Positions 35,299-44,134 of a DNA stretch of 64,000 nt are shown in pieces. The translations under genes and the position numbers were made by a program. The notes below the pieces were generated by a model, which searched no databases, had not been told where the DNA came from, and worked only from the letters and a program-made list of their open reading frames with translations. Every line of letters starts with the position of its first letter. Within the stretch, counting starts at the first letter, position 1. Location of the stretch: positions 62,001-126,000 of the forward strand of contig NZ_JAJNQN010000002.1 of assembly GCF_022227845.1 (NCBI RefSeq), read 5' to 3'. This DNA comes from Ectothiorhodospira lacustris (GTDB lineage: Bacteria > Pseudomonadota > Gammaproteobacteria > Ectothiorhodospirales > Ectothiorhodospiraceae).

Positions 35299-35739
35299 CT
35301 ATCGGGCCTCAATCCAGAAGGTCACCGGGCCGTCATTGGTCAGGGACACCGCCATGTCGGCCCCGAAGCGCCCGGTCGCCACGCGGGGCCAGGCCTCCTG
35401 CGCCCGGGCGGCCAGCTGAGCAAACAAGACCCCCCCCACGGCGGGGTCGGCCGCCGGGGTGAAGCTGGCCCGCAGGCCCTTGCGGGTATCCGCCGCCAGG
35501 GTGAACTGAGGCACCAGCAGCAGGCCACCCCCGGTGTCCCGCAGACTCAGGTTCATGCGGCCCTGCCCATCCTCGAACAGACGATATCCCAGCATCCGTT
35601 CCAGCAGACGTGCCACCTGAACGGCGCCGTCCTCCCGCGTCACACCCACCAATGCCAGGATGCCGGGGCCGATCTCACCGACGGTCTCACCACTCACTAC
35701 CACCCGCGCCTGACTCACCCGCTGCAACAGCGCGATCAT
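35299..35739 (-). CDS. dtd: D-aminoacyl-tRNA deacylase
   Basis: 146 residues: MIALLQRVSQARVVVSGETVGEIGPG start, catalytic LLVPQFTLAADTRKG and the GFGADMAVSLTNDGPVTFW end with Gly-cisPro-type loop. Removes D-amino acids from mischarged tRNA. Start overlaps pip by four bases. Confidence 0.96.
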   Translation of the reverse strand: MIALLQRVSQARVVVSGETVGEIGPGILALVGVTREDGAVQVARLLERMLGYRLFEDGQGRMNLSLRDTGGGLLLVPQFTLAADTRKGLRASFTPAADPAVGGVLFAQLAARAQEAWPRVATGRFGADMAVSLTNDGPVTFWIEAR

Positions 35740-36692
35740 GCCAGGCGATCCGCCAGCGCCTGGGTGGCAGCCACCAGGGCGCGGGCAATCCCCGGCTCAC
35801 CGGCGGAATGCCCCGCATCCGGCACGATGGTGAGTTCTGCCTGCGGCCAGGCCCGGTGCAGCGTCCAGGCCTGATCCACGGGACAGACCACGTCATAACG
35901 CCCATGGATGATGTAACCCGGAATGTCCTTCAGACGGTGGGCGTCACGCAGCAACTGCCCCGGCACCATGAAGGCCTGGTGCCGGAAATAGTGGCACTCG
36001 ATACGGGCCAGGCTCAGGGCGGTGAAGGGATTCTGGAAATGCCCTACCACGGCCGGGTTGGTCATCAGGGTCGCTGTACGCCCCTCCCATTCCGACCAGG
36101 CCTTGGCCGCCGCCATACGGGCCACCTCGTCGGCCCCGGTCAGGCGCCGGTAATAGGCGGCGACCATATCCCCCCGCTCCGTTTCGGGAATCGGCGCCAG
36201 ATAATCGGCCCAGTAATCGGGGAAAAGGCGTCCGGCGCCCTCCTGATAGAACCACTGGATATCCTCGTCACGACACAGGAAGATCCCCCGCAGCACCATT
36301 CCCAGCACCCGCTCAGGGTGGGTCTGGGCGTAGGCCAGGGCCAGGGTGGAGCCCCAGGAACCGCCGAACAGGACCCAGCGATCGATTCCCAGATACTCGC
36401 GGATACGCTCCATGTCCGCCACCAGATCCCAGGTGGTGTTGCCTTCCAAGCCGGCATGGGGCACGGAACGGCCGCACCCTCGCTGATCGAACAGGACGAT
36501 GCGATAGCGGTTGGGATCGAAAAAACGTCGATGCCAGGATTCGCACCCGGAACCGGGGCCGCCATGGAGAAACACCACCGGCAGCCCCCCGGCAATGCCG
36601 CACTCCTCCAGATAGAGACGATGCGGAGGATCTACATCCAGATGATGTGAGCGATAGGGACGAATATCGGGAAACAGGGGGGCGGCAGACAT
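35736..36692 (-). CDS. pip: Proline iminopeptidase
   Basis: 318 residues, alpha/beta hydrolase of peptidase family S33. HGGPGSG oxyanion loop at 43-49, DQRGCGRS near 69-76, nucleophile Ser112 in GGSWGSTLAL, Asp in HGRYDVVCP and His in PDAGHSAGEP. Releases N-terminal proline from peptides. Upstream DNA contains the GacA-type site, which is symmetrical and could in principle also face this gene. Confidence 0.95.
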   Translation of the reverse strand: MSAAPLFPDIRPYRSHHLDVDPPHRLYLEECGIAGGLPVVFLHGGPGSGCESWHRRFFDPNRYRIVLFDQRGCGRSVPHAGLEGNTTWDLVADMERIREYLGIDRWVLFGGSWGSTLALAYAQTHPERVLGMVLRGIFLCRDEDIQWFYQEGAGRLFPDYWADYLAPIPETERGDMVAAYYRRLTGADEVARMAAAKAWSEWEGRTATLMTNPAVVGHFQNPFTALSLARIECHYFRHQAFMVPGQLLRDAHRLKDIPGYIIHGRYDVVCPVDQAWTLHRAWPQAELTIVPDAGHSAGEPGIARALVAATQALADRLA

Positions 36693-36738: not shown

Positions 36739-36756
36739 TGTAAGAAAATCCTTACA
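36739..36756 (+). promoter_or_regulatory. GacA/UvrY-type upstream activating site
   Basis: TGTAAG AAAATC CTTACA, an exact match to the TGTAAG-N6-CTTACA palindrome bound by GacA-family response regulators in pseudomonads and vibrios to activate CsrB/RsmZ-type RNAs. It lies about 80 bp before a weak promoter-like stretch and about 100 bp before the GGA-rich transcript. Confidence 0.8.
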
Positions 36757-36762
36757 GACTTT

Positions 36763-36797
36763 TGCCCCAAAAGCCTGTTTTTCGCAGGTTTGGGGCA
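36763..36797. promoter_or_regulatory. Long palindrome between activating site and sRNA promoter
   Basis: Arms TGCCCCAAA plus CCTG and CAGG plus TTTGGGGCA flank a TTTTTCG loop, giving about 12-13 paired bases with small bulges. No T-run follows on either strand, so it is not an obvious terminator. Its position suggests an additional operator or the 3-prime end of an unseen transcript. Confidence 0.45.
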
Positions 36798-36837
36798 GTG
36801 TTCACCGCCCCCTCGACTATGAAATCATATACCCATG

Positions 36838-36992
36838 GTGCACGAAGCGCCTCCCAGGGATCCTGGAGTGATGGGGTACAGGACGACTTCGGACCAGGCG
36901 TGGAATGAATCCACTAGGCAGGCACGGAACGCAGGATCAATCACCTGACCAGGGATGGTCTCGCTCCCACCAAGGATGGTGGGGGTTTTTTT
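36838..36992 (+). ncRNA. Candidate CsrA-sequestering small RNA (CsrB/RsmZ type)
   Basis: About 155 nt with no plausible reading frame and nine GGA motifs (36858, 36865, 36881, 36891, 36902, 36926, 36934, 36953, 36974). Hairpins present GGA in loops: GACC-AGGGAT-GGTC at 36947-36960 and the terminator stem CCCACC-AAGGAT-GGTGGG at 36966-36983; another stem is at 36851-36868. The transcript ends in seven Ts. An exact GacA site lies upstream. The start is estimated from a weak -35 (TTCACC, 36801) and CATATA (36826). Such RNAs bind and titrate CsrA. The family call is structural inference, since these RNAs conserve little primary sequence. Confidence 0.78.
36966..36992 (+). terminator. Intrinsic terminator of the candidate sRNA
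   Basis: Six-base-pair GC-rich stem CCCACC/GGTGGG with loop AAGGAT, then GG and seven Ts. The GGA in the loop is typical of CsrB/RsmZ terminators. It ends 53 bp before the ttcA start. Confidence 0.92.
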
Positions 36993-37045: not shown

Positions 37046-37843
37046 ATGTCCAGCCTGATTCCTCCTCGCTCCCTGATTCGGGACGCCGGTCGTGCCATCG
37101 GCGATTTTCGCATGATACGCGACGGTGATCGCATCCTCCTTGGCCTATCCGGCGGCAAGGACTCTCTGACCCTGCTGCATCTGCTGCTATATTTCCGGCA
37201 ACGGGCACCGGTTCGTTTCGAGGTCGGCGCCGTGACCATCGACCCCCAGACCGGCCTGACCGACAAACGCGCCCTGATCCCCTATCTCCAGTCACTGGGC
37301 ATACCCTACGCCTACGTGAGTGAACCCATCCTGGCCCGTGCCGAGAAGCATCTGGACAACCATTCGTACTGCTCTTTCTGCTCCCGCATGCGCCGGGGAC
37401 TCATTTACCGCACGGCACGGGAACAGGGCTACAACGTCATCGCCCTGGGACAGCACCTGGATGACTTGGCAGAGAGCTTTCTCATGAGCGCCTTCCATGG
37501 TGGGCGCCTCAAGACCATGAAGGCCCATTATCTCATCGAGGCCGGAGACTTGCGCGTGATCCGCCCCCTGGTCTACGCCCGCGAACGGCGGATTCGCGAC
37601 TTCGCGCACAGGGCCGGACTGCCGATCATGGAAGAAAACTGCCCCACCCGCTTCGGCAAACCCACCCAGCGGCCCCACATGAAGGCCCTGCTGGCCCGGG
37701 AGGAACAGGACAATCCGGGGCTGTTCAAGAGCCTGACCCGCACCCTGACACCACTCATGTCGGTAGGACTGGATGATGTCCCCGACATCGCCGACGATCT
37801 CCCGGCCACCCCCCGGATGGAGCAGTCGCCATGGAACCCCTGA
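37046..37843 (+). CDS. ttcA: tRNA 2-thiocytidine biosynthesis protein TtcA
   Basis: 265 residues. PP-loop LSGGKDS at 34-40, CXXC at Cys109/Cys112 (YCSFCSRMRRG), LGQHLDDLAESF, and the third conserved Cys in ENCPTRFGKPTQRP near 197. An ATP-dependent, iron-sulfur-dependent enzyme that thiolates C32 of tRNA. The end overlaps the next gene by 13 bases. Confidence 0.95.
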   Translation: MSSLIPPRSLIRDAGRAIGDFRMIRDGDRILLGLSGGKDSLTLLHLLLYFRQRAPVRFEVGAVTIDPQTGLTDKRALIPYLQSLGIPYAYVSEPILARAEKHLDNHSYCSFCSRMRRGLIYRTAREQGYNVIALGQHLDDLAESFLMSAFHGGRLKTMKAHYLIEAGDLRVIRPLVYARERRIRDFAHRAGLPIMEENCPTRFGKPTQRPHMKALLAREEQDNPGLFKSLTRTLTPLMSVGLDDVPDIADDLPATPRMEQSPWNP

Positions 37844-38737: not shown

Positions 38738-39010
38738 TCAGGGGAGAAACTCCACCGCCACACCCTCCGGCAGGCGCCTGACCACCCTGGCATTGACCAG
38801 TGGCGGTGCTTCGCCGTCTCCCAGCTGTCCGCAGACCCTTACCTTCACTTCAGTCCCCTCGTCGGGGATCGTGCCCTCCGGGATCAGCAGCATGACCCCG
38901 CCGCCGCTGAGGTCGATGGTCTGCACGCGCCTGGGAGCCTCGTCCTCACAGTGAAGTTCCACCGTGATTTCCATGGGCACCCGCGGGTGTCTGCGCTGAT
39001 CACTACTCAT
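38738..39010 (-). CDS. PilZ domain protein
   Basis: 90 residues, a single PilZ domain. The cyclic-di-GMP-binding residues are present: RRHPR (6-10; RxxxR) and DLSGGG (33-38; D/NxSxxG). It should act as a small cyclic-di-GMP receptor; the target is unknown. Confidence 0.9.
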   Translation of the reverse strand: MSSDQRRHPRVPMEITVELHCEDEAPRRVQTIDLSGGGVMLLIPEGTIPDEGTEVKVRVCGQLGDGEAPPLVNARVVRRLPEGVAVEFLP

Positions 39011-39173: not shown

Positions 39174-39275
39174 CCTTTAAATATCTAAAAAGACAAAGCA
39201 TATAGCTTGATATCATTAAGAGGCAAGATGGGTCCAGGGGACGACCAAAACTACAAAAGGAGGATACTGAATTCC

Positions 39276-39593
39276 ATGAAACATACCCTTTTACGCCATT
39301 CAAGCCGTGCCCTGTTGCTCGCCCTGGCCGGACTGGGCTTCACTCACACCGCGACCGCCGAGGTCTCGCGCGGCGCCCTCATGGCGACCACGTGCTATGC
39401 CTGTCACGGCACCGACGGCCGCAGTGCCGGCGCCATCCCCAGCATCTACGGCTACCCGCCGGAGATCATGATCGCGCAGATGAAGGCATTCCGGGACGGT
39501 ACCCGACCCGCTACCGTCATGGACCGCCATGCCACCGGGTATACGGATGAGGAAATCAAGCTCATCGCCGAATATCTCAGCACCCTGCGCTAG
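39276..39593 (+). CDS. fccA: Sulfide dehydrogenase cytochrome c subunit (monoheme)
   Basis: 105 residues from the ATG at 39276, behind AAGGAGGA (39257-39264). Signal peptide to about residue 28 (ends ATAE), then one heme site CYACH and a later Met in ATVMDRHATGYTDEEI as probable axial ligand, with a class I cytochrome C-terminal helix. A single heme matches the small cytochrome of Chlorobium-type FCSD rather than the diheme Allochromatium type. It accepts electrons from FccB in the periplasm. Confidence 0.88.
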   Translation: MKHTLLRHSSRALLLALAGLGFTHTATAEVSRGALMATTCYACHGTDGRSAGAIPSIYGYPPEIMIAQMKAFRDGTRPATVMDRHATGYTDEEIKLIAEYLSTLR

Positions 39594-39609
39594 GAGAGGC
39601 ACAGCGACC

Positions 39610-40902
39610 ATGGAACAGATGTCACGCAGAAATTTCCTCCGTGCCCTCGGCGCCGGCGGGGCCGCCACGGCCCTGGCGGCCTGCGGCACCCTGCCGGACG
39701 GCCGCAAGGGCAAGGCTCAAGTGGTGGTGATCGGTGGCGGCTCGGGGGGCGCCACGGCCGCCAAGTATCTGAAGCGATTCGAACCCGGCCTGAGGGTGGT
39801 GCTGATCGAGCCGAACGCACGCCATCACACCTGCTATGGCTCCAACTGGTATCTGGGCGGGCTGACCCGCATGGAAAACCTGGAACAGACCTACGGGGCG
39901 CTTCGCGACAGGCATGGCGTCGAGGTTATCCATGACACCGTAACGGCCATCGACCGGGACACCCACACCGTTCATATGGCCGGTGGAGAGCGACTGGGCT
40001 ATCAGAAACTGGTGGTCTCACCGGGCATCGACTTCCGCTACGAGGCGGTGGAAGGCTACAGTGCGGCCGTGGCGGAAGAAATCCCCCACGCCTGGAAGGC
40101 CGGCCCCCAGACCGTAACCCTGCGCCGCCAGCTGGAGGCCATGCCGGACGGGGGCGTCTTCGTCATGGTGGCCCCGGGAAACCCCTTTCGTTGCCCGCCC
40201 GGCCCCTATGAGCGGGCCGGCATGGTGGCCCACTATTTCAAGCAGCACAAGCCGCGCTCCAAGATCATCATCCTGGATAACAAGGAGTCCTTCTCCAAGC
40301 AAGGTCTGTTCATGGACGGCTGGAAACAGCTTTACGGCGACATGATCGAATGGGTGCCCAGTTCCCAGGGAGGGCAGGTGGAACGGATTGATGCGGCCAC
40401 CCGGACCGCTTATTCGGACGGGGGCCTCACCCGCTTCCGGGCGGACGTGCTGAACTTCATCCCACCCCAGATGGCAGGCAGTATCGCCAGGGAGGCCGGC
40501 CTGACCGCAGAAACCGGCTGGTGTCCGGTCAACCAGCTCAATTTCCAGTCGGAAATGGATCCGGACATCTTCGTGATCGGCGACGCCTGTATCGCGGGCC
40601 AGATGCCCAAGTCCGGCCATTCCGCCAACACCCAGGGGAAGACCGCCGCTGCCGCCATTGTCCGTGCCATGGCGAATCAGGACATGCTGGCCCTGTCCAC
40701 GGTGAATACCTGTTACAGCCTGGTGGGACCGGAGTACGGCATCAGCATTGCCGCCGTCTACCGGTTCACGGATGGCACCATCACCGGTGTCCCCGGTTCC
40801 GGCGGCGTGAGTCCCGCGGATGCGGGTCCCAACTTCCGGCGCCAGGAGGCCCGCTACGCCCAGGGCTGGTACGACAGCATCACGTCGGATATCTGGGGGT
40901 AA
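39610..40902 (+). CDS. fccB: Flavocytochrome c sulfide dehydrogenase, FAD subunit
   Basis: 430 residues from the ATG at 39610, behind AGGAGAGG. Twin-arginine signal with SRRNFLRALGAGG (5-17), FAD-binding VVVIGGGSGGATAAKYL near 40, and the two conserved redox-site segments RCPPGPYERA and GWCPVNQLNF, whose cysteines form the active disulfide. C-terminal FCSD domain intact. Oxidises sulfide to sulfur in the periplasm and passes electrons to FccA, 16 bp upstream. TatABC in this window could export it. Confidence 0.94.
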   Translation: MEQMSRRNFLRALGAGGAATALAACGTLPDGRKGKAQVVVIGGGSGGATAAKYLKRFEPGLRVVLIEPNARHHTCYGSNWYLGGLTRMENLEQTYGALRDRHGVEVIHDTVTAIDRDTHTVHMAGGERLGYQKLVVSPGIDFRYEAVEGYSAAVAEEIPHAWKAGPQTVTLRRQLEAMPDGGVFVMVAPGNPFRCPPGPYERAGMVAHYFKQHKPRSKIIILDNKESFSKQGLFMDGWKQLYGDMIEWVPSSQGGQVERIDAATRTAYSDGGLTRFRADVLNFIPPQMAGSIAREAGLTAETGWCPVNQLNFQSEMDPDIFVIGDACIAGQMPKSGHSANTQGKTAAAAIVRAMANQDMLALSTVNTCYSLVGPEYGISIAAVYRFTDGTITGVPGSGGVSPADAGPNFRRQEARYAQGWYDSITSDIWG

Positions 40903-41236: not shown

Positions 41237-44134
41237 TCATCGCCCCAAGACAGCCGCAAAACAGCCCCCCGCATGCCTGAGCCAGATCTCGGCCCGCTCC
41301 GCTTCCACCGCCGGAGAAAACAGGTAGCCCTGGCCGGTGGTACAACCCAAGTCCAGCAGGAGGCCTACCTGCTCCGGGGTTTCCACACCCTCGGCCACCA
41401 CGGATTTGTCCAACTCCCTCGCTATCGCGGTCACCGCCCTGACAATGCCCACGTGTCTGGGATCGCTGCTCAAACGGTGCACAAAGGATTTGTCGATCTT
41501 GACCACATCGAAGGGAAGATCCCGCAACTGACTCAAGGAAGAATAGCCGGTCCCAAAATCATCCATGCACAAATCAATCCCGGCATCTTTCAGGGCTTCC
41601 ATGAGCGCCAGGGCCTGTGTCCCGCTCTCCATCACGGCACTCTCGGTGAGTTCCACTTTCAGACATCGTCCGGACAATCCATGGTGTTTCAATGCCTGCT
41701 GAATGACGGGCACGAGTTCAGGGTCGCGGAACTGCCTGCCGGAAACGTTGATATTGATGGGCAAGACGGCTTCACCGGGAGAGAGACCCAGGCGCTGCCA
41801 TCGCGCAGCCTGCTCAATCGCCTGCTCCACAACCCACCGACCAATGGGAATGATGAGGCCGGTCTGCTCCGCCAGCGGGATGAAGTCGACCGGCGAAACC
41901 GGTCTACCCCCCAGCCTCGGCCATCGCAGCAGGGCCTCGAAACCCAGCAAACGCCCATCTCCCATGGAGACCAGCGGCTGGTAATGCAAGACAAATTCAT
42001 GCCGCTCCAAAGCCCGCCGCATGGCGGTCTCCAGGGTCAGCCTCCGGACTGCACTGGCCCGCATGCTGCCACTGAAAAACATGCTGTTCCCGGGATTATG
42101 GATCTTGGCCTGATACATGGCCGTATCCGCATTTCGCAGCACATCATCCGCGCTCCGGTCCTCGGGGCTTCCCAGGGCAATGCCTACGCTGAAACTGACG
42201 AAGATTTCCTGATCACCGACGCTGACCGGTGTCTGCATGGCTGACTGCAGACGCGCAACCACCTGATGGACCTCATCCTCGGAGGTGATATCCTCCAACA
42301 ACAGCACGAACTCGTCACCACCAAAGCGCGCCACCGAGTCTCCCGGACGCAGGCACATCTGCAACCGCTGCCCCGTCTGGATCAGCATCTGATCACCGAC
42401 GATATGCCCCAGGCTGTCATTGACCGTCTTGAAATTATCCAGATCCAGAAATAGTACGGCATAGCCACTGCCGGAACGCCTGAAACGGGAGATGGCGTGT
42501 TCCAGGCGATCTACGAACAGGGGGCGGTTAGGCAGCTGGGTCAGATGATCATGCAGTGCGTCATGACGCAGCTGTTCCTCAATCCGACGGCGCTCGGTCA
42601 CATCGCTCATGGAACCGGCAATACGGTGGGTCCTGCCGGAGGCGTTGCGCACAGCGACCCCCCTGAAATGCATCCAGCGGTAGCCATTCGTCGCATGACG
42701 CATGCGATGCTCCGTTTCCAGCCAGGGGCTATGGCCTTCCAGGTGAGCATCCAGTTCCTGCTGCAATCTTTGTCGGTCATCCGGGTGCAGGCGCCCAAAC
42801 CACTCGTCGGGTTGGGAAGTCATCTCGCCCGACTCACAGCCCAGCATGGTCTGCCAACGGGGGGAATAGAAGATTTCATTGGTTTCCAGATTCCAGTCCC
42901 AAATCCCATCCTTGGTACCGGCGGCCGCCAGGGCGTAGCGTTCCCGCTCAATGGACAGCTCCTGCACCTTCAGATCCAGGGAGTCTCTTTGTCGGCGAAC
43001 ATCGGCCTCCAACCGCTCCAGCCGATTCGCCAGCTTGAGCGTGGTGTGCTCCAGCAGGCTCAGCTCGTCCGGGAAAAACGGACGTACGGGACTCGCCAGC
43101 TCGTTCCGGACGGAATCAAAACGCCGTTCGGCCAGCAACGGCAACAGACGCGCCACACGGCGCAAGCGAATAAGCGGTGTTCGCGTCATTGCCACAACAA
43201 CCATGGCAAAGAGCACCAGGCCAACCACACCCATGAACACATTCCGGCGCTGAGCGACGGCAATCTGTCGCCGGGCCAGCGTCACATCGCTGATCACCAC
43301 GGCAAGAATCTGGTAGCCCGACTCGTCGTCGAGGAGAAGAAAAGGACTCAGCTCCAACTGCCAACGCCCCTCGAGCTGAAACAGCGTCACCTGCTCGGGG
43401 GTTAACGTCTCCAGTACACCCGAGTCCAGCAGCGGCTCCAGCCGATCACGGCTGGTGATCCCTATCACCTGCTGCCCATCGTCCCCCTCCCGCCCTTCAA
43501 GAGCCAGCCTGAACACGGCCACGTCCAGGGCAGACAGTTCGTTAAAGGACACCACCAGGTGAGACATGGGGCGGGCCAGCACTACGGCCCCCACCGTCTG
43601 GCCATTGGCCAGGACCGGTGCTACGGCATAGCTCAGACAGAGTGAGTTGCAGTCGGTAAAGGTGCTGGGCGTTTCCGTCAACAACGCCTGATCCAGCGCA
43701 GACCAAAGACGTGGCGGCCATTCGTAACGGGCTTCCAGAATTTGCACCTCCACCAGGAATCGGCCATGGATATCGAGAAAACCCGCCCTGACCAGATCCG
43801 TATCCACCTGCAGACTGGCCCACTGAGGTGCAAACAACCGTCCAAGCTCCCCGGCATCCCCCTGTTTGAGGGCCTGCCGCAGCCCGGACAGGGAAGGAAC
43901 GAGATGCGCCAGACCCAGCAGGTCTGCCTGGGATTGCTGCAGCAGTCCCTGCAGCTGCATGCGGGAACGCTGCTGTTCCATCGACCGCAATTCTTCATAC
44001 TGGCCTTGCAGACTCTGGTGATTCAGCCATGCAAACCCGGTGAACAGCCCCGCGAGCAGCACACCCATCACCAGAAGCAGCTTCCACTTCAGACTCAAGA
44101 CCCCACCATTCCTTCTGTCGGCCAGGAGATTCAT
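41237..44134 (-). CDS. Membrane sensor with PAS, GGDEF and EAL domains
   Basis: 965 residues. Membrane helices at about 16-36 and 298-317 enclose a 260-residue periplasmic sensor, which contains a DCNSLC pair (Cys162, Cys166). A helical linker follows, then PAS (398-515), GGDEF (528-685; motif at 605-609, inhibitory RPGD at 596-599) and EAL (700-950; EALLR at 733-737, DDFGTGYSS later). Both catalytic motifs are intact, so it could make or degrade cyclic-di-GMP. Third in an operon with a binding protein and a porin. Confidence 0.93.
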   Translation of the reverse strand: MNLLADRRNGGVLSLKWKLLLVMGVLLAGLFTGFAWLNHQSLQGQYEELRSMEQQRSRMQLQGLLQQSQADLLGLAHLVPSLSGLRQALKQGDAGELGRLFAPQWASLQVDTDLVRAGFLDIHGRFLVEVQILEARYEWPPRLWSALDQALLTETPSTFTDCNSLCLSYAVAPVLANGQTVGAVVLARPMSHLVVSFNELSALDVAVFRLALEGREGDDGQQVIGITSRDRLEPLLDSGVLETLTPEQVTLFQLEGRWQLELSPFLLLDDESGYQILAVVISDVTLARRQIAVAQRRNVFMGVVGLVLFAMVVVAMTRTPLIRLRRVARLLPLLAERRFDSVRNELASPVRPFFPDELSLLEHTTLKLANRLERLEADVRRQRDSLDLKVQELSIERERYALAAAGTKDGIWDWNLETNEIFYSPRWQTMLGCESGEMTSQPDEWFGRLHPDDRQRLQQELDAHLEGHSPWLETEHRMRHATNGYRWMHFRGVAVRNASGRTHRIAGSMSDVTERRRIEEQLRHDALHDHLTQLPNRPLFVDRLEHAISRFRRSGSGYAVLFLDLDNFKTVNDSLGHIVGDQMLIQTGQRLQMCLRPGDSVARFGGDEFVLLLEDITSEDEVHQVVARLQSAMQTPVSVGDQEIFVSFSVGIALGSPEDRSADDVLRNADTAMYQAKIHNPGNSMFFSGSMRASAVRRLTLETAMRRALERHEFVLHYQPLVSMGDGRLLGFEALLRWPRLGGRPVSPVDFIPLAEQTGLIIPIGRWVVEQAIEQAARWQRLGLSPGEAVLPININVSGRQFRDPELVPVIQQALKHHGLSGRCLKVELTESAVMESGTQALALMEALKDAGIDLCMDDFGTGYSSLSQLRDLPFDVVKIDKSFVHRLSSDPRHVGIVRAVTAIARELDKSVVAEGVETPEQVGLLLDLGCTTGQGYLFSPAVEAERAEIWLRHAGGCFAAVLGR

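Follow-up and report, generated by a model that had tools for sequence, protein, structure and literature searches.

The small RNAs RsmY, RsmZ, and RsmX of Pseudomonas and CsrB and CsrC of enterobacteria are the closest described counterparts of the element reported here. One account places GacA sites at -75 for rsmY and at -196 for rsmZ (PMC4950607), and the title of Brencic et al. 2009, cited in PMC2904497, reports RsmY and RsmZ as the sole route by which GacA of P. aeruginosa acts. CsrB carries the repeat CAGGA(U/A/C)G, with 22 GGA sites in the E. coli RNA, according to PMC7652899. Csr RNAs have recently been found in a non-model marine bacterium as well, Pseudoalteromonas fuliginea, where excerpts of two papers describe Pf1, Pf2, and Pf3 (PMC9927453, PMC11882849). 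The accessible portions of the openly licensed PMC literature on Ectothiorhodospira and Thioalkalivibrio mention csrA, and we found no Csr RNA in them. csrA was upregulated in a Thioalkalivibrio (PMC8092127) and CsrA was detected in a purple sulfur bacterium (PMC6413534), and the accessible portions of both papers make no mention of a Csr RNA. The main text of a machine-learning prediction of CsrA-pathway sRNAs, as far as its accessible portion goes, names none of four related genera (PMC5568370).

We analyzed a 64,000-nucleotide stretch of the Ectothiorhodospira lacustris genome (the window), for which an earlier note had proposed a CsrB/RsmZ-type sRNA under a GacA activating site between pip and ttcA. 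The proposal is supported: csrA and a gacA-like gene are present in the genome, the element is conserved, and two of its GGA-capped stems covary. Judging from sequence comparison, we give a probability of roughly 0.9 to the reading that positions 36834 to 36992 of the forward strand encode a CsrA-titrating sRNA of the CsrB/RsmZ type under GacA control. Very probably, it adds one more case to a familiar type of switch, and relatives retain it although they have little of the sequence in common with it.

In design, the candidate is close to rsmY and to the CsrB repeats as described in the cited papers, yet it belongs to no Rfam family. It shares with the Pseudomonas RNAs a GacA-type palindrome upstream (at -75 in rsmY), a small size, and multiple GGA motifs in hairpin loops, and the likeness to RsmY extends to sub-threshold matches in three loci described below. 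It differs from RsmY, RsmZ, and RsmX in having no Rfam match at the gathering score, in lying beside pip, in carrying a GGA in the terminator loop, and, in most congeners, in the palindrome arms TGTAGG/CCTACA. With CsrB and CsrC it shares loops resembling the CAGGA(U/A/C)G described for CsrB, but it has nine GGA motifs where E. coli CsrB has 22, and no Rfam match. Pf1, Pf2, and Pf3 are Csr RNAs too, from another lineage.

Anatomy of the intergenic region

As the earlier note had it, a gap of 353 bp separates two divergent genes, whose starts are at 36692 (minus strand) and 37046 (plus strand). We take the former to be pip, encoding a proline iminopeptidase-like protein, and the latter to be ttcA. 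Read toward ttcA, the gap holds in order the palindrome, the -10-like element CATATA, nine GGA motifs, the hairpin GACC-AGGGAT-GGTC, a terminator with a GGA in its loop, and seven T residues. The features are as follows.

35736..36692, minus strand: presumed pip, start at 36692; divergent neighbor and conserved landmark
36739..36756, plus strand: GacA-type upstream activating palindrome TGTAAG-N6-CTTACA, exact; the sequence is TGTAAG-AAAATC-CTTACA
36826..36831, plus strand: -10-like element CATATA, without a recognizable -35; an ATCATAT motif is aligned in 9/9 congeneric loci
36834..36992, plus strand: candidate CsrB/RsmZ-type small RNA with nine GGA; homologues found by BLASTN and covariance model
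36837..36851, plus strand: 5' hairpin H1, GGTGC-ACGAA-GCGCC; all cells paired in eight sequences, one pair being U-G/U-A
36854..36866, plus strand: hairpin H2, CCAG-GGATC-CTGG, GGA in loop; G006, G007, and G009 instead form a hairpin at a shifted position, likewise with a loop GGA
36900..36914, plus strand: hairpin H3, GTGGA-ATGAA-TCCAC, GGA in stem; invariant in eight congeners
36937..36945, plus strand: conserved unpaired TCAATCACC just before H4; TCAC invariant in 14/14 homologues
36947..36960, plus strand: hairpin H4, GACC-AGGGAT-GGTC; its loop GGA is invariant in 14/14
36964..36992, plus strand: intrinsic terminator H5, GGA in loop, then seven T; two-sided changes at 4/9 stem pairs among congeners
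37046..37843, plus strand: presumed ttcA, start at 37046; downstream neighbor in part of the homologous loci

The exact TGTAAG-N6-CTTACA palindrome that had been described is present, and it is the sole match in the window even when two mismatches are allowed. Exact copies are expected 0.0007 times per window and 0.04 times per genome at the base composition of the window, and the 3.28-Mb assembly (49 contigs) has no second one. Palindromes with one or two mismatches in this genome were set aside, since a reversed-pattern control gave more of them than the pattern itself (37 versus 22). Between the palindrome and the promoter, at 36763-36797, the E. lacustris copy has an imperfect inverted repeat, TGCCCCAAAAGCCTG/CAGGTTTGGGGCA, which by eye is not kept in congeners.

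The RNA would start at about 36834-36838. All nine GGA motifs that had been claimed for some 155 nt are found, in 36838-36992. Windows of 155 nt that reach nine GGA make up 0.27% on the same strand and 1.3% on the other strand, and dinucleotide shuffles of the E. lacustris copy reach its count often enough to leave it non-significant (p 0.11). The stem and seven Ts said to end the RNA are likewise there; the terminator stem CTCCCACC/GGTGGGGG with the loop AAGGAT occupies 36964-36985, and the seven T follow directly. The placement of GGA motifs in hairpin loops holds for H2, H4, and H5 but not for H3, where the GGA lies in the stem, and only about half of the motifs are free. In the predicted fold, the mean probability of being unpaired exceeds 0.5 for five of the nine GGA; the folding energy is ordinary, the RNA being no more stable than its shuffles (z -0.77).

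At the gathering score, Rfam returned no Csr/Rsm match in the window or in 14 homologous loci. The covariance models of RsmY, RsmZ, RsmX, CsrB, and CsrC all stayed below their gathering thresholds, with RsmY scoring 9 bits on the E. lacustris copy against a cut-off of 57; scans at permissive thresholds established no Csr/Rsm family, and a plasmid collection gave no match. The earlier note had pointed out that such RNAs are recognized by repeated GGA loops rather than by sequence identity. Taken alone, the E. lacustris RNA is not striking, given its fold (z -0.77), its GGA count (p 0.11), and the lack of an Rfam Csr/Rsm family. Because Rfam assigns no family and the folding energy is ordinary, the case for the RNA rests on comparison.

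Conservation within the genus

When 96 genomes were searched by BLASTN with the gap as query, it was found in 9 of the 10 genomes of Ectothiorhodospira, E. lacustris included, and in none of the 86 others, a negative that outside the order covers 49 genomes of the class. The named congeners are E. shaposhnikovii (two strains), E. magna, E. haloalkaliphila, and E. mobilis (two strains). The smallest genome of the genus (G005, 2.0 Mb) has neither palindrome nor RNA. In E. magna the RNA is shortened to 90 nt and five GGA, and ttcA was not found beside it. In all nine loci with the RNA, the arms TGTARG/CYTACA surround an AAAATC center and the end of the palindrome lies 75 to 77 nt from the modeled start; six of the nine have TGTAGG-N6-CCTACA instead of TGTAAG-N6-CTTACA.

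Among the eight full-length congeners, 98.8% of the cells in named stems pair, versus 39 to 52% when the sequences are slid by one to three columns, a comparison that favors the unslid version in that the stem model was drawn partly from the same eight sequences. Ten cells in five pairs are changed on both sides, all in H4 and the terminator. When five measures were compared with 500 shuffles, three of them were reached by no shuffle. The number of pairs with two-sided changes was reached by 20, a modest excess, and that of further pair types by 321, which is no excess. In H1 a single pair varies, on one side, and H3 is invariant. The short form of E. magna has H1 as GGTAC-GGGAA-GTACC, a two-sided change with a GGA in the loop. 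In the aligned sequences, then, two stems, H4 and H5, covary, and their covariation supports the structure. Conservation of the GGA structure in related genomes, to which the earlier note had tied its proposal, was found in the genus and beyond it, in the form of two covarying GGA-capped stems.

Homologues in other genera

A covariance model built from eight RNAs of the genus (R1) was run over 47 genomes of the order. It matched all five genomes of the Thioalkalivibrio denitrificans/sulfidiphilus group (g4; three are named T. denitrificans, T. sulfidiphilus, and Thioalkalivibrio sp.) at E values of 5e-9 to 6e-8, and one further, 81%-complete MAG of the order (G010) at 8e-6. All six loci lie beside pip, carry the palindrome, and have 10 to 11 GGA. 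Their RNAs had escaped BLASTN, and columns of the 14-sequence alignment are on average 66% identical. The palindrome arms are perfect in four of the six and have one mismatch in two, and the six-base center is mostly different. The distance from palindrome to modeled start is again 75 to 77 nt, which is weaker evidence here than within the genus because the -10-like anchor was picked by hand.

In total, R1 gave matches at E <= 1 in 23 of the 47 genomes, and 15 were accepted (nine in the genus, G010, and five in g4). A match in L074 (G024) was discarded as lying, by eye, inside an apparent coding sequence, those in L075-L081 had no palindrome adjoining, and short second matches in G021 and G001 were set aside. 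The MAFFT alignment A2 misplaced loops of differing length, which made it unsuitable for a broader covariance model. The palindrome is absent from the 23 g3 genomes searched (30 g3 in all, with G040-G046 left out) and from G005. One genome, G013, has a short relative upstream of ttcA (L084 1329-1518, minus strand; 69% identity for ttcA) with a palindrome, a promoter-like motif, and a terminator. It has two GGA only and a hairpin GCC-AGGAA-GGC, its R1 E value is 0.0078, and we read it as a shrunken or decaying version of the RNA.

The 14 full-length homologues of the order, E. lacustris included, all have 9 to 11 GGA. In 10 of them the number lies above that of dinucleotide shuffles (p < 0.05), and in 4, among which is the E. 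lacustris copy, it is not significant. GGA-capped hairpins, counted as a GGA that can sit in a 4- to 9-nt loop closed by four or more stem pairs, number two to seven per sequence in 18 sequences, figures that are upper estimates in that some of the hairpins are mutually exclusive. E. lacustris has five, against a shuffle mean of 1.4 and with 2/200 shuffles as high. The hairpin count was matched by at most 3/200 shuffles in 11 of the 18 sequences, by 10/200 in one, and by 13 to 55/200 in six. In all 14 homologues, the GGA in the loops of H4 and H5 is invariant. The arms of H4 vary yet pair (GACC/GGTC, ATGCC/GGCAT, GTC/GAC, GGCC/GGCC, and TGGC/GCCA; 14 located among the 18), and loops such as CAGGATG and CAGGACG fit the CsrB repeat. 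CsrA binding gives no explanation for the conserved unpaired stretch before H4, which is perhaps a nuclease or pairing site.

Of 308 related loci in a scan by pip alignment, the best 80, with 463 kb of sequence, were covered. Among these 80, the palindrome is perfect in 12 and has one mismatch in 1 (L110), in each case no more than 200 nt upstream of pip. Each of the 12 perfect palindromes is followed by a GGA-rich stretch, and the 463 kb contain no others. Two of the 80 loci were dropped from the GGA comparison as too short; the 13 with a palindrome have 7 to 11 GGA per 155 nt, versus a mean of 2.6 (range, 0 to 8) in the 65 without (p 6e-9, a value that ignores relatedness). When the 155-nt window was allowed to slide freely over the first ~550 nt, 11 of 67 palindrome-less loci among these 80 reached 7 to 10 GGA, several of them in neighboring coding genes by eye, and GGA density alone is therefore not specific.

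A similar locus occurs in L115 (a Thiohalomonas denitrificans MAG) and in L116 and L117 (gammaproteobacterial MAGs), with GACC-AGGA(T/C)-GGTC hairpins. We judge these three to be outside the order by their names and because R1 misses them. On the RNA strand they have sub-threshold RsmY matches of 22 to 24 bits (cut-off, 57; E, 0.04 to 0.13), a level at which unrelated families score equally elsewhere in the loci. In a Sedimenticola MAG (L144), inspection by eye showed upstream of pip a palindrome with two mismatches, a density of 8 GGA per 155 nt, and ATGGA in the loop of a terminator; this is possibly a further homologue that the palindrome rule missed.

Partner genes

A search for csrA and gacA/uvrY, named in the earlier note as a check, found csrA present, by eye after a lysC-like ORF, and a GacA/UvrY-like gene beside (upstream of) uvrC, but the latter is split over two frames. 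csrA is in all 10 genomes of the genus, in all 5 of g4, in G013, and in 41 of the 47 genomes of the order; it was not found in the 81%-complete G010. A gacA-like gene lies beside uvrC in 10/10 genomes of the genus and in 5/5 of g4, and no uvrC-linked copy was found in the retrieved stretches of G010, G013, and g3. In the E. lacustris gene (G000:C23:111278-111911; L017 1435-2155), the receiver and DNA-binding domains are in different frames, and in 9/9 congeners the gene is one open frame. The split is an assembly error or a real loss, and function in this very strain is therefore uncertain.

Against the GacA/UvrY model NF007018, eight congeners score 195 to 208 bits, G005 scores 159, and the best E. 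lacustris piece scores 139. Higher scores came from G010 (264), g4 (244 to 252), and G013 (211), and of the 30 g3 genomes five score 188 to 201 and the others 130 or less; the cut-off of 280 bits is reached by none of the 47 genomes of the order. G005, G023, G027, and G039 have a gacA-like protein without the palindrome, and in G005 both csrA and the uvrC-linked gene are present. The gacA-like proteins and the palindrome thus co-occur only in part. A hybrid kinase matches the BarA model over nearly its full length, at 414 bits, below the cut-off of 890.

Alternative explanations

The palindrome could be the site of another regulator of the LuxR/NarL family, with an RNA that titrates CsrA in response to a signal other than GacS/GacA. 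We regard this as unlikely, even though it would accommodate several observations: the form TGTAGG-N6-CCTACA in six of the nine congeneric loci, palindromes before protein genes in three relatives (unlike P. aeruginosa GacA), the split gacA of E. lacustris, and the lack of a palindrome despite a gacA-like gene (G005) or GacA-like proteins of 188 to 201 bits (G023, G027, G039). Against it, the arms fit the GacA consensus with one transition each, and the palindrome occurs in 0/23 g3 genomes tested, 25 of the 30 g3 genomes being without a GacA-like protein above 185 bits. That the RNA acts instead by base-pairing with mRNAs, as an Hfq- or ProQ-type sRNA in which the GGA motifs are incidental or Shine-Dalgarno-like, seems to us very unlikely. 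What survives across genera is the loop GGA with covarying stems and the upstream palindrome, and the sub-threshold matches of L115-L117 are to RsmY on the RNA strand, though unrelated families score equally elsewhere. Base-pairing would, however, give a role to the unpaired TCAATCACC with its invariant TCAC and to the invariant H3, both unexplained by CsrA titration, and the best Rfam match of the E. lacustris copy, itself insignificant, is to the sRNA Hrs1 (opposite strand, 15 bits, cut-off 56).

Two further readings deny that there is an independent noncoding RNA, and both were rejected. A cis-acting 5' leader of ttcA, either an attenuator or a riboswitch, would suit an RNA that reads toward ttcA and has its terminator before that gene, and ttcA does follow in eight of the nine Ectothiorhodospira loci and in G010, G012, G015, and G013. 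Yet the RNA is kept where ttcA was not found in the retrieved flank (L068, L071, L072, L109, L110, L115-L117, and E. magna; L068 and L071 share their RNA with L109 and L110), and the conserved parts are the GGA loops and the upstream activator palindrome, which together make a leader highly improbable. We see next to no chance that the ATG/GTG at the 5' end of the RNA opens a small coding gene. The frame has 37 codons in E. lacustris and is open to the RNA end in three congeners, and an open ATG frame also starts two g4 sequences; but among eight congeners its length is 14, 17, 37, or an open-ended 52 to 53 codons, with indels between, and other genera have no comparable conserved frame.

Proposed mode of action

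As a CsrB/RsmZ-type sRNA, 36834-36992 on the plus strand would yield an untranslated RNA of ~155 nt; a terminator was found and is conserved, and no reading frame is conserved. Its promoter would consist of the -10 element, no clear -35, and the palindrome, the near edge of which lies ~77 nt upstream of the presumed start. A phosphorylated regulator of the GacA/UvrY type may bind the palindrome and turn transcription on. By comparison among homologues, the GGA motifs of at least the last two hairpins cap covarying stems, and from the action of CsrB and RsmZ we infer that the motifs would take up CsrA dimers, thereby withdrawing CsrA from mRNAs and lifting its repression. Going by the anatomy, transcription would stop at the GGA-loop terminator, ahead of ttcA, and the RNA would be a transcription unit of its own. 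If so, anoxygenic purple sulfur bacteria and haloalkaliphilic sulfur oxidizers would join the lineages with a Gac/Csr circuit that includes an RNA component. The RNA could seed a new Rfam family, traceable by pip synteny as well as by sequence, and the lineages with long, short, and missing forms offer a panel for the gain and loss of CsrA sponges.

Palindromes before protein genes and other neighbors

Within the genus, TGTARG-N6-CYTACA occurs once in six genomes, not at all in G005, and 6, 4, and 2 times in G006, G009, and G007, respectively. The last three make up the E. haloalkaliphila clade and have nine extra palindromes, in L044, L051, L053, L055-L058, and L188. Eight of the nine face a protein ORF that starts 107 to 304 nt downstream, with the direction toward it taken as forward; at L055, L057, and one L044 site there is an ORF on the other side also. 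The AAAATC center points toward the gene in five of the eight, a near variant does so in two, and the orientation is opposite in one (L053). The ninth (L188) faces only a frame of 69 codons on the AAAATC side and one of 212 codons on the other. By eye, a -10-like element is placed similarly to that of the sRNA, at about 50 to 72 nt. Pfam identified an outer-membrane barrel, a chemotaxis receptor (MCP), and a histidine kinase among the products; for the other five no match exceeded a curated cut-off, three of them being lipoprotein-like by eye. We tentatively suggest, at somewhat less than even odds, that the Gac-type pathway of the E. haloalkaliphila clade is a two-arm regulon that combines direct transcription of surface and signaling genes with RNA-mediated relief from CsrA. 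Binding of GacA to the extra palindromes would be a departure from P. aeruginosa GacA, which, by the title cited above, acts exclusively through rsmY and rsmZ.

The cyclic-di-GMP genes that had been pointed out near the RNA are indeed there, a PilZ gene at 38738-39010 and a GGDEF-EAL gene at 41237-44134. At 39207-40902, a small cytochrome c-like ORF is followed by a flavoprotein-like ORF, a pair that we read by eye as flavocytochrome c sulfide dehydrogenase, consistent with a sulfur oxidizer.
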